Shown: positions 35,572 to 43,195 of the stretch, one piece after another
Position numbering within the stretch: position 1 is the first letter of the stretch
How the letters are laid out: each line of letters begins with the position of its first letter
Source: Flavobacteriales bacterium
GTDB lineage: Bacteria > Bacteroidota > Bacteroidia > Flavobacteriales_D > Sanyastnellaceae
Reading direction: 5' to 3'
DNA length: 45,625 nt
NCBI GenBank assembly: GCA_020437755.1
Contig: JAGQVX010000010.1
Coordinates: 1-45,625 of the forward strand
The notes under the pieces: model-generated
Databases searched by the model: none
Seen by the model: the letters and a program-made list of their open reading frames with translations, nothing else
Told to the model about the DNA's origin: nothing
Position numbers and translations under genes: made by a program

Positions 35572-35597
35572 AAAGGGAGCCACGTGCTCCCTTTTTC
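35572..35597 (+). terminator. Rho-independent terminator after the five-repeat protein
   Basis: AAAGGGAGC and GCTCCCTTT form the stem (about 35572-35594) around CACGT, followed by TTCTTTTTC. It separates this transcription unit from the sugar dehydrogenase operon. The remaining part of the gap to 35727 shows only a weak promoter-like TATCTTTA at 35700-35707. Confidence 0.8.
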
Positions 35598-35727: not shown

Positions 35728-37137
35728 ATGAACAGGAAAATTTTCACGCTTTTATTTCTGGGATTCTGCGCCACCATGCCTTTGGCTCAAGCGCAGACCG
35801 AATGGGAAGTTGGTCCCAACACTACATTGACAGAATATGATTTAGTCACAGGTGTTAACCTTCCTTGGGAAATTCTGTGGGGTCAAGACGATTACATCTG
35901 GGCAACGCTGCGAACCGGAAAAGTCCTCCGAATTGATCCGGCAACCGGAAACTACACGGAAGTACTCTCCATAACCGTAACCGGCGACGGTTCCTCAGAG
36001 CCCGGATTGCTGGGGATGGCCCTGCATCCGGATTTCCCGAACACTCCAACAGTTTACCTCGTATACAATTCGGGAAGTGTTTGGAGCGGAGAAGAGCGCC
36101 TTTCAGCCTGGGAATGGAACGGCACTGAACTCGTTAACGAAACCATATTGGTCGACGAAATTGTAGCCGGCGGAATCCACAACGGCAGCCGAATCATCAT
36201 CACTCCCGACAATAAAATCCTCATGACTACCGGGGACACAGGAGACGGAGGGGTGTCTTCTCAAAATATTAATGCCCTCAATGGCAAGACTCTTCGCATC
36301 AATTTGGATGGTTCCATTCCCGACGACAACCCTGACCCAACGAGCTATGTTTACAGCTTCGGTCACCGCAATTCACAGGGACTGTGCAACGGTCCGAACG
36401 GAATCATTTATGCATCGGAACACGGACAGTCCAACAGCGATGAGTTCAATATCATCGAGGCCAATCGCAACTATGGATGGCCTAACGTGGAAGGAGCATG
36501 CAATACGGCAAGTGAACAAACCTTCTGTGAAGCAAACAACGTTCGTGAACCGCTCAAGGAATGGTCTCCCTGCGTTGCTGTAAACGGCATTGAATACTAC
36601 AACCACCCTGCGATCCCCGAATGGGAAAACTCAGTACTTATGTCGGTTCTGGGTGGTTTAGGCGGACAGTATGAGCGCCTTTCCATCCTCCACATGAGCG
36701 ACGATGGTATGGAAGTCGACAGCGAGCAGCAGTTCTTCTCATCGTTCAACCAGCGAATCCGCGATATTTGTGTAAATCCGTATGATGGGTCTATTTATGT
36801 CGCGTTCAATGGTACCTCTTACCCCGGTTCCGGTCCGAACATTATCAAGCACTTTGTAAATGAAGACTTCACTGCAGTTAAATCTCCTGCAGCTCATTCA
36901 AACCAAAACATTGAGGTGTACCCCAATCCGGTAGAAGGACGCGCTACCATCGAGTTCTCACCTGAATTCATTGGGACCAACTACATGATCTATAGCTTTA
37001 CAGGACAATTGATCCGCAACGAGATTTTGGACGGCAGTGCCGTTCAAATCAACGGCGATGATCTTGCTCCCGGTCAGTACTACGTGAAATCGACCACTCA
37101 ATACGGCACTGTAACACGCACCTTCATTGTCAAGTAG
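35728..37137 (+). CDS. PQQ-dependent aldose/sorbosone dehydrogenase-like protein with T9SS sorting domain
   Basis: The product has 469 residues. A signal peptide (about 1-22, ending AQAQ) leads into a six-bladed propeller of the soluble glucose/sorbosone dehydrogenase family (about 30-385). Family marks are LPWEILW, GLLGMALHPDF, GIHNGSRIII with the putative catalytic base H151, GDTGDGG, SFGHRNSQGL and EHGQSNSDEFNIIEANRNYGWP. The enzyme oxidises sugars or related alcohols at the cell surface, passing electrons from PQQ. The C-terminus is a Por sorting domain (IEVYPNPVEGRATIEFS ... TVTRTFIVK). The TonB receptor gene starts 3 bases after the stop, so the two form an operon. No pqq synthesis genes are in the window. 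Confidence 0.88.
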   Translation: MNRKIFTLLFLGFCATMPLAQAQTEWEVGPNTTLTEYDLVTGVNLPWEILWGQDDYIWATLRTGKVLRIDPATGNYTEVLSITVTGDGSSEPGLLGMALHPDFPNTPTVYLVYNSGSVWSGEERLSAWEWNGTELVNETILVDEIVAGGIHNGSRIIITPDNKILMTTGDTGDGGVSSQNINALNGKTLRINLDGSIPDDNPDPTSYVYSFGHRNSQGLCNGPNGIIYASEHGQSNSDEFNIIEANRNYGWPNVEGACNTASEQTFCEANNVREPLKEWSPCVAVNGIEYYNHPAIPEWENSVLMSVLGGLGGQYERLSILHMSDDGMEVDSEQQFFSSFNQRIRDICVNPYDGSIYVAFNGTSYPGSGPNIIKHFVNEDFTAVKSPAAHSNQNIEVYPNPVEGRATIEFSPEFIGTNYMIYSFTGQLIRNEILDGSAVQINGDDLAPGQYYVKSTTQYGTVTRTFIVK

Positions 37138-37140
37138 TCG

Positions 37141-39441
37141 ATGACACTCACCTCACAAAACTACTTGCAAACAGCCTTGGTTCTCTTGGGCTGTTTGTTT
37201 GTTTTTGGTCTTTCAGCTCAGCATACATTGCGCGGAGAGATTCGAGATTTCAATACCCAATCGCCTGTGGTGGGCGCCGTGCTTACCTTCGATAATTGTG
37301 GTGTAATCACTGATAATGAGGGGCGCTTCAAGGTGGAAGTAATGAAAGTGCCTGCGTATGCTTCCTTGAGCCACATCAACTACGCGCAGCGTATTGGGTT
37401 TTCGACCGACTCCATCTACCACATCATCCAGGTATTGCCCATAACGCATTACACAGGCTACAGCTACATTGAAGGTACGGGTACCAAAGGTCGGCAGGAT
37501 AAGGCCACTGCAACTGTTGAGGTACTCGAACAGTCGCAAATTTCCATTGCCGATCAATCGAGTCTGAAAAGCAGTCTGGAACTCTTACCGGGTGTACAAT
37601 ACGAAGAACGCGGTATGGGCGGAAGTCGCAGACTCAGCATTCGTGGTAGTTCTTATCGATCTCCATTCGCTATCCGCAATGTCAAAATGTATTACGATGG
37701 CATCCCCCTCACCGGTCCGGATGGTCATACACCCATGGAAATTGTGGAGCCTAATGACCTGAGTCAGGTCGAGGTAATCAAAGGTCCCGCGGGAACCATT
37801 TATGGCTCCGGGAATGGTGGTGTACTCCACTTTCGCTCCAAATGGACCAATATCGACACACTTGGAGCTTACGCAGGCCAGCAAAGCGTTGTAGGTGATT
37901 TTGGATATCTTAAAACCAACGTGTGGGGAGGGGTACAATCCCCGAAGACCGCCATTCGTGTTTCGGCAGTCCATCAGGAATCAGATGGCTACCGAAACCA
38001 GGAGTCCAATTCGAAAGACCAAGTGACTGTCGTGGGACAATTTGTGCCGGGAGATCGATACCGAGCCCGTCTGTTGGCCCTGTATTATCATGGCAACTGG
38101 GGATTGCCGGGCGGCTTAACACATGATCAGTTCAATACAGATCCAACGCAAGCAGTTGCCTTTAGCGATAGTATTGATGCTGCGGTGTATCGGGATCGAA
38201 CGATGTTTGGTTTCAATCAAATGTTCAGGATTCTCGACCATCTCACCAACGAAACCGTATTGTTCACCTATTGGACATCCAAGGAGAACCCATATGGCAC
38301 TTCACCCTTTTTCAACGGTTACAAAGATGAGTCGGCCACGGGTTATGGCGCGCGCAGCGTGTTCAAGTGGTCAACCGCAAATTGGGACAGACAGCAGCTC
38401 GAGGTCCAGGCTGGAGGTGAGTTCCAAACCGAGCGATGGGAAATCAGGGAGTACGGTTATGAAGGTTATACTATTGGACAAGCCAAATATTTCAACCAAA
38501 CGAAAAATGTGGCTTCCTTGCTTTTTGGCCAGGTCTCTTATAATCACTTCAGGTGGGGAACGCATGTTGAACTCGGAGTCTCCAATGCTTCAACGGAATA
38601 CAGAAACAAGGGAGTGTACTATGCTGAACCTTCGGTACCGCTCAATGTAGATTTGGAATTTGGCAATGCCTGGTTGCCCAGAGTCGGCGTGAACCAGCGT
38701 TTTGGGAATCATTTGAATGGCTATGCCCAATGGAGCATGGGAAATGCGATACCCACGCTTTTTGATGTTATTGATGTGGAAAGCGGAGCATTCAACACCG
38801 CGCTTCAAGCCGAACGAGGCAAAAATTTCGAAGTAGGAATGCGTGGCAGTTGGTGGGAGAATCGGGTACATACTCAGCTTGCCACCTATCGTTTTGCTAT
38901 CCGGAATGCACTTGTGCCTTTGAGCGATGGTCAATTCCACAATGTAGGTAGCATCCAGCAAAACGGTGTCGAGTTGGTCACGCGGTTGATCCTCGTTCAA
39001 AACAACGCTTATTGGATCAACAGACTGGAATATCATTTGGCGTATGCCTCACAAGACTACCAATTTACAGACTATGCTCAGGGAGAGGGAAACCTGCGCG
39101 ACAACTACCTCCCCGGAGTTTCGCGAAACACATTGGCTCAGCAGCTTGACCTGAATTTCACACGGTATTTTGCGCTGAATATCAGACACTATTGGTATGA
39201 CACCATGCCCCTGGACGATGGCAATACCCAGTGGTCGGACGCCTATCATATCCTTAATATACGCGCTGCACATGAAGGGAATTTTGGGGGATTTCAATAC
39301 GAAATCCACGGCGGTCTGAACAATGTGCTGGACACTCCCTATTCCGGTTTCGCGGCGATCAACGCAGTTGGAGGGAAATACTACAATCCGGCTCCCGGCA
39401 GATATTGGTACGCCGGATTGAAGTTTGGATACGCTTTTTAG
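37141..39441 (+). CDS. TonB-dependent receptor, FecA-like, coupled to the PQQ dehydrogenase
   Basis: The product has 766 residues. The signal peptide ends VFGLSAQ. A carboxypeptidase-regulatory-like domain (about 28-110; LRGEIRDFNTQSPVVGAVLTFDNCGVITDNEGRF, split by a Cys) is followed by a plug (about 115-240). The plug contains SSLKSSLELLPGVQYEERG, SRRLSIRGSSYRSPF, MYYDGIPLTGPDGHTP and EVIKGPAGTIYGSGNGG, which is the FecA-type sequence style. The barrel ends YWYAGLKFGYAF with the usual terminal Phe. A gap of only 3 bases after the dehydrogenase gene implies joint expression. E. coli PqqU (YncD), also FecA-like, imports PQQ, so PQQ is the best guess for the ligand (inference). A TTTGGCGTATGCC motif lies at 39036-39048. 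Its stop overlaps that of the next gene. Confidence 0.9.
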   Translation: MTLTSQNYLQTALVLLGCLFVFGLSAQHTLRGEIRDFNTQSPVVGAVLTFDNCGVITDNEGRFKVEVMKVPAYASLSHINYAQRIGFSTDSIYHIIQVLPITHYTGYSYIEGTGTKGRQDKATATVEVLEQSQISIADQSSLKSSLELLPGVQYEERGMGGSRRLSIRGSSYRSPFAIRNVKMYYDGIPLTGPDGHTPMEIVEPNDLSQVEVIKGPAGTIYGSGNGGVLHFRSKWTNIDTLGAYAGQQSVVGDFGYLKTNVWGGVQSPKTAIRVSAVHQESDGYRNQESNSKDQVTVVGQFVPGDRYRARLLALYYHGNWGLPGGLTHDQFNTDPTQAVAFSDSIDAAVYRDRTMFGFNQMFRILDHLTNETVLFTYWTSKENPYGTSPFFNGYKDESATGYGARSVFKWSTANWDRQQLEVQAGGEFQTERWEIREYGYEGYTIGQAKYFNQTKNVASLLFGQVSYNHFRWGTHVELGVSNASTEYRNKGVYYAEPSVPLNVDLEFGNAWLPRVGVNQRFGNHLNGYAQWSMGNAIPTLFDVIDVESGAFNTALQAERGKNFEVGMRGSWWENRVHTQLATYRFAIRNALVPLSDGQFHNVGSIQQNGVELVTRLILVQNNAYWINRLEYHLAYASQDYQFTDYAQGEGNLRDNYLPGVSRNTLAQQLDLNFTRYFALNIRHYWYDTMPLDDGNTQWSDAYHILNIRAAHEGNFGGFQYEIHGGLNNVLDTPYSGFAAINAVGGKYYNPAPGRYWYAGLKFGYAF

Positions 39442-41180
39442 TCACACGTATTTCCAAAGAAGCCAAGGAAAATAATCAAATCATTGGTTGAGATTCCCGG
39501 AACGCCGTCAATCTCGGTTGGACAGTCGGCCAGACAACCGAATCCGGCAAGCATCAGCAGCAAGTCAGCTCCATTCACCATACCATCGCCATTGAAATCG
39601 CCCTGACAAGTAGGCCCTGCGACCGTGAACTCAAATGCTCCCATGTCAATAACAGGGGCACTTCCAGCACCCGTATCGGGCGTAGATGGATCATCAAACC
39701 ATCGATCATTTCCATCCAAATCCACACTACCCCCCACCCCATTATAGTGAGCATTGCTTCCGGCATCGATGCACGGTGAAACGTCGGACAAATAATACGT
39801 TGAAGTTCCGTCATTCAGCAGCGGATCGGTATCCAGGCAACCCGGAAAGTTTTCGGGATCGGGTGGATCCTCCCCCGGCTCGGGCTCCAGCAAACCTTCA
39901 ATGCAACTGTACTCAATGTCGTTATTGCCGCTCACCTGAGCTTTGAAGGTGGTCACTTCAGTTCCTGTAGCTGTGTTACCATGAATTATACTGTTCAAGA
40001 TGACGAGATTTGCTTGCTGAAAAGCGGCCACTGCGCCTTCTCCGGCAGTATTATTGGCTATGGTACAATTGATAATATTACATGTCGATCCGCTAAACGA
40101 AGAAGCCAGGATTGCCGATCCCACATCTCCCACATCGAAACCAACTGAGCTCTGCAGTCCCCACGCAAAATTTTCGGCAAAGAGACAATTTACTATGGTC
40201 GCATCTTTTAATACATAGACTGCCCCACCATAATTTGCTGAATTCCCGATGAAGTTGCAATCTTCTACTTGAAGACTTACACCATAACTTGAAATAGCAC
40301 CGCCATAATCTGCCTGATTGCCGAGTACGCCGTATCGGGCAGCTGTATTATCTATAAAATTACAGCGCCGTACGGTAAGGTTTCCAGCTCCTACATAATG
40401 GCATATCGCAACGCCATTGTTGGGCCCAACATCGGTAGCCAATCCCCTATTGTCTATAAACTCAGTGTTTTCAATTGTAAAATCAGCCGATGATGTGATG
40501 TGAATACCTACGCCCTTGGAGTATTGACCCAGGTTTTGATGGAATGTACAACCCGTAATATGGGGAGCAGCATTGTTGATGATACTCACCCCTGCCCCCT
40601 GTCCGAAATAGCAGAAATTTCGGTAAAACGTGCAGTTGGCCACCTCCAAAGCAGAGTTATCGATGATCAATCCCGAAGCTTGATACGTTGTGGTAGTATA
40701 GCCCGACTCGATTCGAAAACCGTCAATGGTTGTTCCGGCCCCAATGGATTGCGCCAGTACAAGAACATTGCTATTGGCAGTGGTGATATCCCAACCTGAA
40801 TACCATAGGCCCAGACCGAAAACGTCATCATCATTCAAGTCGCCGTTAAGTCGTGTAATGTAGGTTGTCCAATCACGTTGTTGAAGCTGTGACTCCGTTC
40901 CCTGGAAACCACCATACAGACTTACTCCATCTTTCATGATGTAAGAGTCGGTTTCACTTGTCCCGGGATGGTAGTTTCCCTGGGCTACCCACACTTCATC
41001 GCCTGAGGCAGCGATGTCGATCATTTGTTGGATGCTATTTGACGCGTTGAACCAAGATGAGCCATCCATGGTTCCTGCCCCGGTTTCGGTTACAAAATAG
41101 GTTGTTTGTCCCCTCAGTGAATGAGAAATGAGGACTACGCACAGGAGGAAGACCCGGCGTAAATAGGGGTGGTAATACAT
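39438..41180 (-). CDS. Secreted parallel beta-helix protein with dockerin-like C-terminus
   Basis: The product has 580 residues. After a signal peptide ending HSLRGQ comes the start motif of the polymorphic-outer-membrane-protein/right-handed beta-helix type (GAGTMDGSSWFNASNSIQQMIDIAASGDEVWVAQGNYHPG). Many helix rungs follow (IDGFRIESGY, VANCTFYRNF, HITGCTFHQNL, VRRCNFIDNTAA, VEDCNFIGNSANYGGAVY). It lacks a Por sorting domain. It ends in a paired EF-hand-like segment, CQGDFNGDGMVNGADLLLMLAGFGC, and a weaker second copy ISTNDLIIFLGFFG, like dockerin type I. Such tails recur on Bacteroidota exoproteins and may act as an alternative anchoring or sorting signal (inference). It converges on the TonB receptor gene with a 4-base overlap. 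Confidence 0.83.
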   Translation of the reverse strand: MYYHPYLRRVFLLCVVLISHSLRGQTTYFVTETGAGTMDGSSWFNASNSIQQMIDIAASGDEVWVAQGNYHPGTSETDSYIMKDGVSLYGGFQGTESQLQQRDWTTYITRLNGDLNDDDVFGLGLWYSGWDITTANSNVLVLAQSIGAGTTIDGFRIESGYTTTTYQASGLIIDNSALEVANCTFYRNFCYFGQGAGVSIINNAAPHITGCTFHQNLGQYSKGVGIHITSSADFTIENTEFIDNRGLATDVGPNNGVAICHYVGAGNLTVRRCNFIDNTAARYGVLGNQADYGGAISSYGVSLQVEDCNFIGNSANYGGAVYVLKDATIVNCLFAENFAWGLQSSVGFDVGDVGSAILASSFSGSTCNIINCTIANNTAGEGAVAAFQQANLVILNSIIHGNTATGTEVTTFKAQVSGNNDIEYSCIEGLLEPEPGEDPPDPENFPGCLDTDPLLNDGTSTYYLSDVSPCIDAGSNAHYNGVGGSVDLDGNDRWFDDPSTPDTGAGSAPVIDMGAFEFTVAGPTCQGDFNGDGMVNGADLLLMLAGFGCLADCPTEIDGVPGISTNDLIIFLGFFGNTCD

Positions 41181-41254: not shown

Positions 41255-43195
41255 CTATTCCACAACCATAAACTCCGTCCTTCGATTCTTCGCCCGGGAG
41301 GCATCGTCTGAATTGGGCACAACAGGCTGGCTTTCACCATATCCTTTAGCTACCAGGCGGAAAGGCTCTATGCCTTTGGATACCACATAGTCAACAACCG
41401 CCTGTGCCCGACGCTCGCTGAGCAATTGGTTGTCGGCCTCACTTCCAATATCATCAGTATGACCACCAATTTCGACGCGTGTATGTCGGTTCAATATCAG
41501 GAACTCTACCAGCTTATTCAACTCCACCATCGATTGAGGTTTCAAATCGTACTTGTCCGTGTCAAAGAAAATGTTGTTCATGACGACTTTGTTTCCCGGA
41601 CGAACCTTCTCCAGCGGGGCTTCAAGCGTGTAGGGAGTGGCGTCTTCGTTGGCGGTGAGACTGAAATTGGCTGAATAAAACAAGTACCCTTCCCTACTCG
41701 CGTTGAGTGCATAGTCGTGATCGGCAGGGAGGCACACGAGAAATTCACCCGATTTGGGATTTGAGTAGCTCTCCGCTACTACCTTTCCCGTTTCCAAATC
41801 AATCACCTGAACCCGGGCTTCCAATTTTTTAAATGATGTGGCGTCAAATACTACCCCTTTGGCGTACGTCACGGGTACCGGACGAAACTGCTCGGGCATG
41901 GTGAAGTAGTATAGGTCAAGAGAGCCATACCCTCCCTCGCGATCCGAGGCGAAATAGGCCAATTCTCCCGAAGCCGATACCAACAAGCTGTTTTCATTAC
42001 CATTGGTGTTGATGGGATAACCAAGATTCACTGGTGTACCCCATGTGCCATCGGGTTGCAAACGCGACATGAAAATGTCCAATCCTCCCATTCCCGGGTG
42101 TCCATTGCTCGAAAAATAAAGTGTTTGTCCATCGGGATGAATCAATACCGATTCTTCCTCAAAAGGAGTATTTACCGCCCCCGGCAAACGTTTAGGTTTT
42201 TCCCATACCTGATCTTCCCCCAAATGAGACACCCAAATATCCTGCTCCTTTATACCCGAAGGCGACGACTTGCCGCGCACGAAATACAAGGTTCGGCCAT
42301 CTGCTGCCAGACTAGGTTGTGAATCCCACGAATAACTATTTACACGTTCGCCCAGGTTGCTGGCTTTACTCCACATATTGCCAATTTTGTACGAAAAGAA
42401 CAGGTCACAACTGCCCAATCCATTACGGCCATCACCCCATTGTCCCTCAATTTCACAAGCTGTAAAAATGAGCACTTGCCCGTCTTGCGATAAAGTAGGT
42501 GCGCCTTCATTCATAAGTGTGTTGATCTCAGCAATATTGGTTGCCTGCTCCCATTGATCGCCACTGCTGTGAGAAACAAAGAAATCCTCTTGTCGGCCAC
42601 GCATGGCCATGGGATGTGATACTTCGCGGGTAAAAAGCAAGGTGGCGTCGTCGGCGGTCAGACAAGGATAGTATTCCGGATCAGCAGTGTTTACGCCCGG
42701 CCCCAGGTTGATGGGATCGAATGGAACGGGATTGTTCATGGCTTCCACGGCAAAGTCACAACTGGCGATACCCAATGTCGCCCGATCACGTTGTGTAACG
42801 TCACGTACCGGTCCGTCGAGAAATCGTGTAAAACTGGCCCTGCTCTCCGCATATTGCCCTTCAATAAGGTACATTTCCCCCAAAAAATAATAGGCCAATG
42901 GAAAATACCCCGGATCAATTGCAACGGCATTTTCCAACGACGTAATCGCCTCTGCATTCCGGTTCTTGTCTGCATAAACCTGAGCAAGCAACAGGTGCGC
43001 CTCAATAAACTGGTCGTTTCGAGATAAAGCATCATTGAGCAGGCTTTCGGCCTCTACATAGTAGTACAGGTTGTAGGCCTGCTGAGCTTCCTCATACATC
43101 TTAATGGCTTTCTTATCGTTGATGGAGTATCCGGGTTGAGCAAACATGCTGATACACAGCATACTCATGACGATCAGACCAAGTAATTTCTTCAT
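41255..43195 (-). CDS. PorE-like TPR / beta-propeller / OmpA-domain protein
   Basis: The product has 646 residues. A signal peptide (MKKLLGLIVMSMLCISMFAQ) is followed by TPR repeats (about 30-150; AEAITSLENAVAIDPGYFPLAYYFLGEMYL). A PD40/WD40-like propeller (about 165-440) has blades such as PTLSQDGQVLIFTA, PSLAADGRTLYFVRG and VLIHPDGQTLYFSSNG. A carboxypeptidase-regulatory-like domain lies at about 455-530. The OmpA C-terminal peptidoglycan-binding domain (about 540-646) has NIFFDTDKYDLKPQSMVELNKL, IGGHTDDIGSEADNQLLSERRA and KNRRTEFMVVE. This is the architecture of PorE of Porphyromonas gingivalis, a T9SS component that anchors the machinery to peptidoglycan. Several paralogs usually exist in one genome, so a true T9SS role is likely but not proven. 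Confidence 0.9.
   Translation of the reverse strand: MKKLLGLIVMSMLCISMFAQPGYSINDKKAIKMYEEAQQAYNLYYYVEAESLLNDALSRNDQFIEAHLLLAQVYADKNRNAEAITSLENAVAIDPGYFPLAYYFLGEMYLIEGQYAESRASFTRFLDGPVRDVTQRDRATLGIASCDFAVEAMNNPVPFDPINLGPGVNTADPEYYPCLTADDATLLFTREVSHPMAMRGRQEDFFVSHSSGDQWEQATNIAEINTLMNEGAPTLSQDGQVLIFTACEIEGQWGDGRNGLGSCDLFFSYKIGNMWSKASNLGERVNSYSWDSQPSLAADGRTLYFVRGKSSPSGIKEQDIWVSHLGEDQVWEKPKRLPGAVNTPFEEESVLIHPDGQTLYFSSNGHPGMGGLDIFMSRLQPDGTWGTPVNLGYPINTNGNENSLLVSASGELAYFASDREGGYGSLDLYYFTMPEQFRPVPVTYAKGVVFDATSFKKLEARVQVIDLETGKVVAESYSNPKSGEFLVCLPADHDYALNASREGYLFYSANFSLTANEDATPYTLEAPLEKVRPGNKVVMNNIFFDTDKYDLKPQSMVELNKLVEFLILNRHTRVEIGGHTDDIGSEADNQLLSERRAQAVVDYVVSKGIEPFRLVAKGYGESQPVVPNSDDASRAKNRRTEFMVVE

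Follow-up and report, generated by a model that had tools for sequence, protein, structure and literature searches.

A GSDH-type sugar dehydrogenase gene and a PqqU-related TonB receptor gene form a conserved pair in Flavobacteriales and may supply the enzyme with scavenged pyrroloquinoline quinone

The stretch of DNA analyzed here (the window) comprises 45,625 nucleotides of a Flavobacteriales bacterium (assembly GCA_020437755.1, contig JAGQVX010000010.1), whose genome is available as a 3.78-Mb draft that is 99% complete, and it carries a gene for a sugar dehydrogenase of the GSDH type followed by a gene for a TonB-dependent receptor. According to the original prediction, the first gene encodes an enzyme exported by the type IX secretion system (T9SS) that needs pyrroloquinoline quinone (PQQ), and the second, three bases downstream, encodes the receptor that imports this cofactor. 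Both open reading frames (ORFs), their spacing and their domains were confirmed (Table 1): the stop codon of the dehydrogenase gene (TAG, 37135-37137) is followed by TCG and then by the receptor ATG at 37141. Upstream, a hairpin with a T-rich tail separates the dehydrogenase gene from a gene for a T9SS protein, and downstream a convergent gene shares 4 bases with the 3' end of the receptor gene; the pair therefore looks like a separate two-gene unit, which would be co-transcribed. The hairpin is suggestive only, since the scan overall yields no more hairpins than shuffled sequences do.

Table 1. Features of the gene pair and its surroundings in the window
Feature	Position	Strand	Evidence
GSDH-type PQQ sugar dehydrogenase gene, six-bladed, signal peptide and T9SS tail	35728..37137	+	ORF, domain and residue searches
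GSDH domain PF07995	35857..36810	+	E 5.9e-65; 220 bits vs cut-off 25
Codon of H151 (catalytic base His144 of Acinetobacter sGDH)	36178..36180	+	Invariant in 15-sequence comparison; 100/100
Codons of R214-N215 (Arg228-Asn229 around PQQ ketones)	36367..36372	+	Residue comparison
Codons of R343 and R345 (Arg406/Arg408, PQQ carboxylates)	36754..36762	+	Residue comparison
T9SS type A sorting domain	36916..37131	+	PF18962 E 8e-9; TIGR04183 E 8.5e-10
Gap between the two genes, 3 bases	37138..37140	+	Sequence
TonB-dependent receptor gene, sister clade of PqqU	37141..39441	+	Profiles, trees, predicted fold
Plug domain PF07715	37498..37821	+	E 1.7e-19
Codon of F176 (PQQ-stacking Tyr99 of PqqU)	37666..37668	+	Alignment
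V349 (K274 site, basic residue lost), with R351 and R353 at +2 and +4	38185..38199	+	R351, R353 45/46 each
T379 (R304 site, lost) and invariant K381 at +2	38275..38283	+	K 46/46
I435 (R365 site, basic residue lost)	38443..38445	+	Alignment
Terminator-like hairpin between upstream T9SS-protein gene and pair	35572..35594	+	9 pairs, 5 GC, then TTCTTTTT
Beta-helix protein gene, convergent, bounds the pair but lies outside the unit	39438..41180	-	ORF and domain search
TPR/PD40/OmpA protein gene	41255..43195	-	Domain search

The dehydrogenase is a protein of 469 amino acids with a signal peptide, judged by eye, and the two attributes of a T9SS cargo were both found: the sorting domain on the protein itself and a gene for the SprA translocon in the same genome (2472 bits). 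It is one of three GSDH genes above the cut-off in this genome. Equivalents of His144, Arg228, Asn229, Gly247, Arg406 and Arg408 of the Acinetobacter soluble glucose dehydrogenase (sGDH) are present in all 100 of the 100 T9SS-type enzymes compared, including those of a genus without the receptor (g12). The roles of these residues in the Acinetobacter enzyme, with His144 as the catalytic base, have been described (PMC6881810, PMC6881789).

The original prediction also noted that no PQQ synthesis genes are seen in the window. PqqD (PF05402) was undetected in the window's genome by a search that detects it in control genomes. A search for PqqE across 299 genomes of the order gave no match, a weak negative, since no control genome gave one either. 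The eight-bladed PQQ repeat PF13360 gave no match in the window's genome. It has been reported that PqqU, the PQQ importer also named YncD in Escherichia coli, occurs in 206 Bacteroidota genomes, none of which has PQQ biosynthesis (PMC12124388).

Among characterized TonB receptors, PqqU is the closest to the window receptor (766 amino acids) by sequence and by predicted fold. A phmmer search of all PDB sequences returned PqqU as the best match over the full length (E 3e-24), the sole other match being FoxA/CntO in the plug region (5e-4), and a profile of 56 receptor relatives gave 269 bits for PqqU, against 83 for the next family, 78 for FecA and 29 for RagA. The nearest NCBIfam model is that of PqqU, NF041535 (E 1e-35, 123 bits), which is matched by 43 of the 45 members of the PqqU superfamily; the score lies under the cut-off of 1200 of this model, which is tuned to proteins close to E. 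coli PqqU. Comparison with PqqU by structure prediction, which had been proposed from the outset, gave a PqqU-type fold as the best match: the AlphaFold model (mean predicted local distance difference test 88.9, predicted template modeling score 0.82) fits PQQ-bound PqqU (9c4o) with a Foldseek E of 9e-56 and a Z of 44.3 at 2.0 Å over 632 residues, against a Z of 37 for FecA. With E. coli PqqU as the query, the window receptor is the only match at E <= 1e-5 in its genome. In our receptor trees, which were obtained by a quick search with the Shimodaira-Hasegawa-like approximate likelihood ratio test (SH-aLRT) as the only support, the clade of the window receptor is a sister of canonical PqqU and does not fall inside it (SH-aLRT 99).

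Two other assignments of the receptor were considered and rejected. Canonical PqqU identity was rejected on two signature residues (R304 and R365) together with the tree position. FecA or ferric-siderophore identity as the nearest relationship was rejected on the bit scores and Z values given above, and on the failure of the NCBIfam FecA model to match; the FecA-like character ascribed to the plug thus proves to be that of the generic TonB-receptor fold, with PqqU nearer.

Conservation of the pair was borne out. Among named Flavobacteriales metagenome-assembled genomes (MAGs) with readable upstream sequence, the GSDH gene lies directly upstream of the receptor gene and on the same strand in 50 of 63 loci, and the pair is present in 48 of 56 cases in genomes of the same order; these two samples overlap and are not additive. 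Many of the gaps in the named MAGs fall between -4 and +13 bases, often as overlaps of 1-4 bases or spacers of a few bases, the most negative values being an artefact of taking the first start codon. The receptors of conserved pairs are mostly only 25-35% identical, and we estimate the chance of such same-strand adjacency at about 1 in 1000, given one such receptor and three GSDH genes in the genome. A GSDH gene is present in about 99 of the 102 receptor-bearing genomes of the order and in roughly a third of the others, a hand count that is confounded by lineage. Nearly all of the relatives in named collections are uncultured MAGs labeled Flavobacteriales, Bacteroidetes, Cryomorphaceae or Crocinitomicaceae. 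When the same genomes are compared, identity is about 32% for the receptor against about 60% for the enzyme, a sign of much faster divergence of the receptor. MAGs labeled Chryseobacterium gleum (L162, L164, L172 and L174) carry loci typical of this uncultured Flavobacteriales family, and their names look wrong.

Partner swaps outside the family, found in further Bacteroidota families, are a stronger argument than conservation inside it. Within receptor clade f9, genus g55 has an Asd-type lipoprotein upstream and genus g48 an AA12-like enzyme; in the f4/f17 clade the partner is AA12-like or Asd-type. The partner enzymes of f9 and f4 are only 15-28% identical to the window dehydrogenase, and the AA12-like ones (f9 genus g48, f4) also match DUF7133. 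The arrangement varies as well: in family f17 the Asd-type gene lies upstream (L233, L234), 28 bases downstream (L240) or in convergent orientation (L235, L236), and at a canonical PqqU locus (L150/L245) it lies 8 bases upstream. Common to the partner enzymes are the six-bladed fold of the PQQ type and the oxidation of sugars; their localization differs, and the sugar probably does too. When the presence of a GSDH gene nearby is mapped as a label on a tree of 105 receptors, 8 changes are required, of which starred branches force at least 6, against a mean of 33 for shuffled labels. These data bear on the possibility that the receptor imports an iron siderophore or ferric citrate and that the gene order was merely inherited in one lineage. 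Most TonB receptors of known ligand do carry iron complexes, and with family f1 accounting for most of the pairs, common descent could explain the linkage. We nevertheless regard this explanation as quite improbable, with FecA and the other siderophore receptors clearly more distant, the FecA model unmatched, and neighboring enzymes of one fold recurring at several separate points of the receptor tree, with varied subtypes and arrangements.

Canonical PqqU genes have other neighbors too: a SpoIID-domain gene lies just upstream in families f25, f47 and f51 (loci L130, L139 and L140), and a SAM hydroxide adenosyltransferase gene just downstream in f49 (loci L138 and L146).

With modest confidence, we lean towards a two-gene cofactor-supply operon in which a PqqU-like receptor feeds scavenged PQQ to the dehydrogenase; PQQ dependence of the enzyme and import of this cofactor by the receptor are both probable. 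As a diverged member of the PqqU superfamily, the receptor would use TonB energy to bring its ligand through the outer membrane, this ligand being PQQ, a metal complex of PQQ or a closely related anion. In the periplasm, PQQ and Ca2+ would load the freshly exported six-bladed enzyme, which the type IX system would then carry, folded and loaded, to the cell surface or the medium, where it would oxidize sugars to lactones. It has been reported that SprA transports folded proteins (PMC9251779). Charging in the periplasm would account for the pairing of a surface enzyme with an importer, and likewise for lipoproteins and plain secreted enzymes as partners near related receptors.

Several observations weigh against this reading. 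In genus g12 (L095, L097, L103 and L104) the receptor is cleanly gone between the same flanking genes while the enzyme is retained, and a convincing PqqU-like receptor, canonical PqqU included, was not found there as a replacement (best E 7e-6); replacement by a canonical PqqU would have spoken strongly for the reading. In genus g10 (L036-L039, L162-L164 and L168) the receptor follows an acyltransferase gene (PF01553) and not the GSDH gene, which lies on another contig or, in two genomes, was not found. In other Bacteroidia families, the clade that lacks the signature is represented by receptors surrounded by unrelated genes, with no GSDH neighbor. A surface enzyme could also capture PQQ outside the cell. 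In the enzyme, the site of Lys377, which contacts the C-7 carboxylate, is G in 94 of 100 sequences and K in 3, with an uncertain loop register. In the receptor, finally, R304 and R365 are replaced, and K274 and R536 with them, as set out below. The link between receptor and dehydrogenase is thus strong and not obligatory.

The loss of the Lys377 equivalent in most T9SS-type enzymes could mean that the dehydrogenase has lost its use of PQQ, as Hedgehog-interacting protein has, and that the receptor serves something else. The profile of the enzyme does touch Hedgehog-interacting protein (43-45 bits), and its score on the narrow sGDH model TIGR03606 is 204 bits, below the cut-off of 434. However, the catalytic His, the Arg-Asn pair and both PQQ-carboxylate arginines are invariant, and the AA12 enzyme also lacks K377 yet binds PQQ (PMC6881789), which makes this explanation very improbable. 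Because the catalytic and PQQ residues are kept, and Lys377 is missing also from PQQ-binding AA12, the T9SS-type enzymes are likely PQQ-dependent, as judged from their residues.

The PqqU signature consists of Y/F/W99, R304 and R365; K274 and R536 are also important in E. coli, where charge-swap changes at K274, R304 and R365 impair PqqU (PMC12124388). We aligned the relatives of the window receptor with canonical PqqU from E. coli and with 27 canonical sequences from Bacteroidota (28 in all). An aromatic residue occupies the site of position 99 in the window receptor, and in 57 relatives this site is F in 45, Y in 9 and T in 3. This is the only part of the signature that was recovered: R304 and R365, kept in 28 of 28 canonical PqqU sequences, are T379 and I435 in the window receptor and T/S and I/L in nearly all of its clade, where K274 has become V/L and R536 various residues or a gap. 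The receptor is hence a PqqU relative that may work like PqqU and falls outside PqqU by its signature. Its family f1 has conserved basic residues two or four positions from the lost ones, and K395 is basic in 46 of 46 members; these displaced residues leave an anionic ligand plausible, because such residues of a beta-strand face the same way. At locus L248 (G590), three PqqU-superfamily receptors lie in a 19-kb stretch, with K or R at site 304 and none basic at 365.

Because R351, R353, K381 and K395 would suit any anionic ligand, aldonates included, and the PQQ signature is lost, the receptor might import not the cofactor but a product or substrate of the enzyme (an aldonic acid, lactone or oligosaccharide), the two genes then forming a pair for surface oxidation and uptake; the enzyme is exported, and oxidized sugars would arise outside the cell. 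We consider this unlikely: sequence and fold indicate PqqU and no known sugar importer, SusC/RagA scoring far lower, the unit has no SusD or glycoside hydrolase, and the linked enzymes are three divergent subtypes that likely differ in their sugars, with PQQ as the common denominator. A bolder form of the cofactor-supply reading is offered tentatively, and in all its parts we hold it to be somewhat doubtful: that the clade of the window receptor imports PQQ, a derivative or a metal complex through a rebuilt site, the residues that grip the carboxylates having shifted by two positions on the same strands, and that it does so to charge a type IX enzyme in the periplasm ahead of export. The two genes would then be a dedicated operon for cofactor supply, one overlooked by the published PqqU signature.

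The unpaired receptors of the window receptor's clade were also inspected, and no other common theme was found among their neighbors. At L040:5211-9310 (G001, family f2), CcmB-like and cytochrome c assembly (CcmC-like) genes lie downstream of a receptor gene of this clade and in the same orientation. Beside the pair in the window, the convergent beta-helix protein has a dockerin-like calcium-loop repeat at its C-terminus (GDFNGDGMVNGADLL...), and a protein with the same domains as the TPR/PD40/OmpA protein is also a convergent neighbor of the pair in the relative L054.

Taken together, the gene pair is real, conserved and sensible, and the idea of the original prediction survives in weakened form. 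A receptor acting as a PQQ importer gains from its kinship with PqqU and from the conserved pair, and loses from the missing binding signature and from its dispensability in genus g12, so that its being dedicated to the enzyme can only be suggested. The link had further been called little described in the phylum. PqqU in Bacteroidota was already published in 2025 (PMC12124388); our limited literature search found no report of a pair of GSDH and TonB receptor in Bacteroidota or of T9SS-exported PQQ enzymes, and none of an operon link between PqqU and six-bladed dehydrogenases. If the proposal is true, a vitamin-type importer would be tied to a specific enzyme by operon structure, a consumer of scavenged PQQ would be suggested, and the pocket of PQQ importers would prove open to rebuilding, which means that surveys by residue signature count too few of them. 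The 2025 survey used PF01011, PF13360, PF13570 and the model of Diamond et al. to find PQQ enzymes, PF07995 not being in its Pfam list, and it reports PqqU producers without any PQQ enzyme (PMC12124388). In our study, a PF07995 enzyme was found in 30 of 32 canonical PqqU genomes of the phylum tested, which is a lead and not a statistic, as it has no matched PqqU-free background; the puzzle of PqqU without a PQQ enzyme thereby becomes directly testable.

Compared with known systems, the window receptor shares with the FecA ferric-citrate receptor the general TonB receptor architecture only. The enzyme has in common with GdhB of Acinetobacter and YliI/Asd (PF07995; PDB 1cq1, 2g8s, 3a9h) the six-bladed fold by homology, the catalytic His, the Arg-Asn pair and the PQQ-binding arginines, and it differs from them in its T9SS tail, in lacking a K377 equivalent and in having its gene joined to a receptor gene. 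The fungal AA12 PQQ pyranose dehydrogenase (PDB 6jt5, 6i1t) likewise lacks K377, although the window enzyme is not AA12-like and is nearer to sGDH/Asd; in families f4 and f9, the corresponding position next to a related receptor is taken by AA12-like enzymes. With PqqU of E. coli and its Bacteroidota relatives (PMC12124388; PDB 9c4o, 6v81), the window receptor shares full-length homology, the predicted fold, an aromatic residue at the PQQ-stacking site, a C-terminal motif (IN..GG.YY.PAPGR in the window) and occurrence without PQQ synthesis genes in Bacteroidota, whereas it differs in belonging to a sister clade with about 20% identity, in the replacement of R304, R365, K274 and R536 with invariant basic residues two positions on, and in its operon with a sugar dehydrogenase, which is unreported for PqqU in that study.

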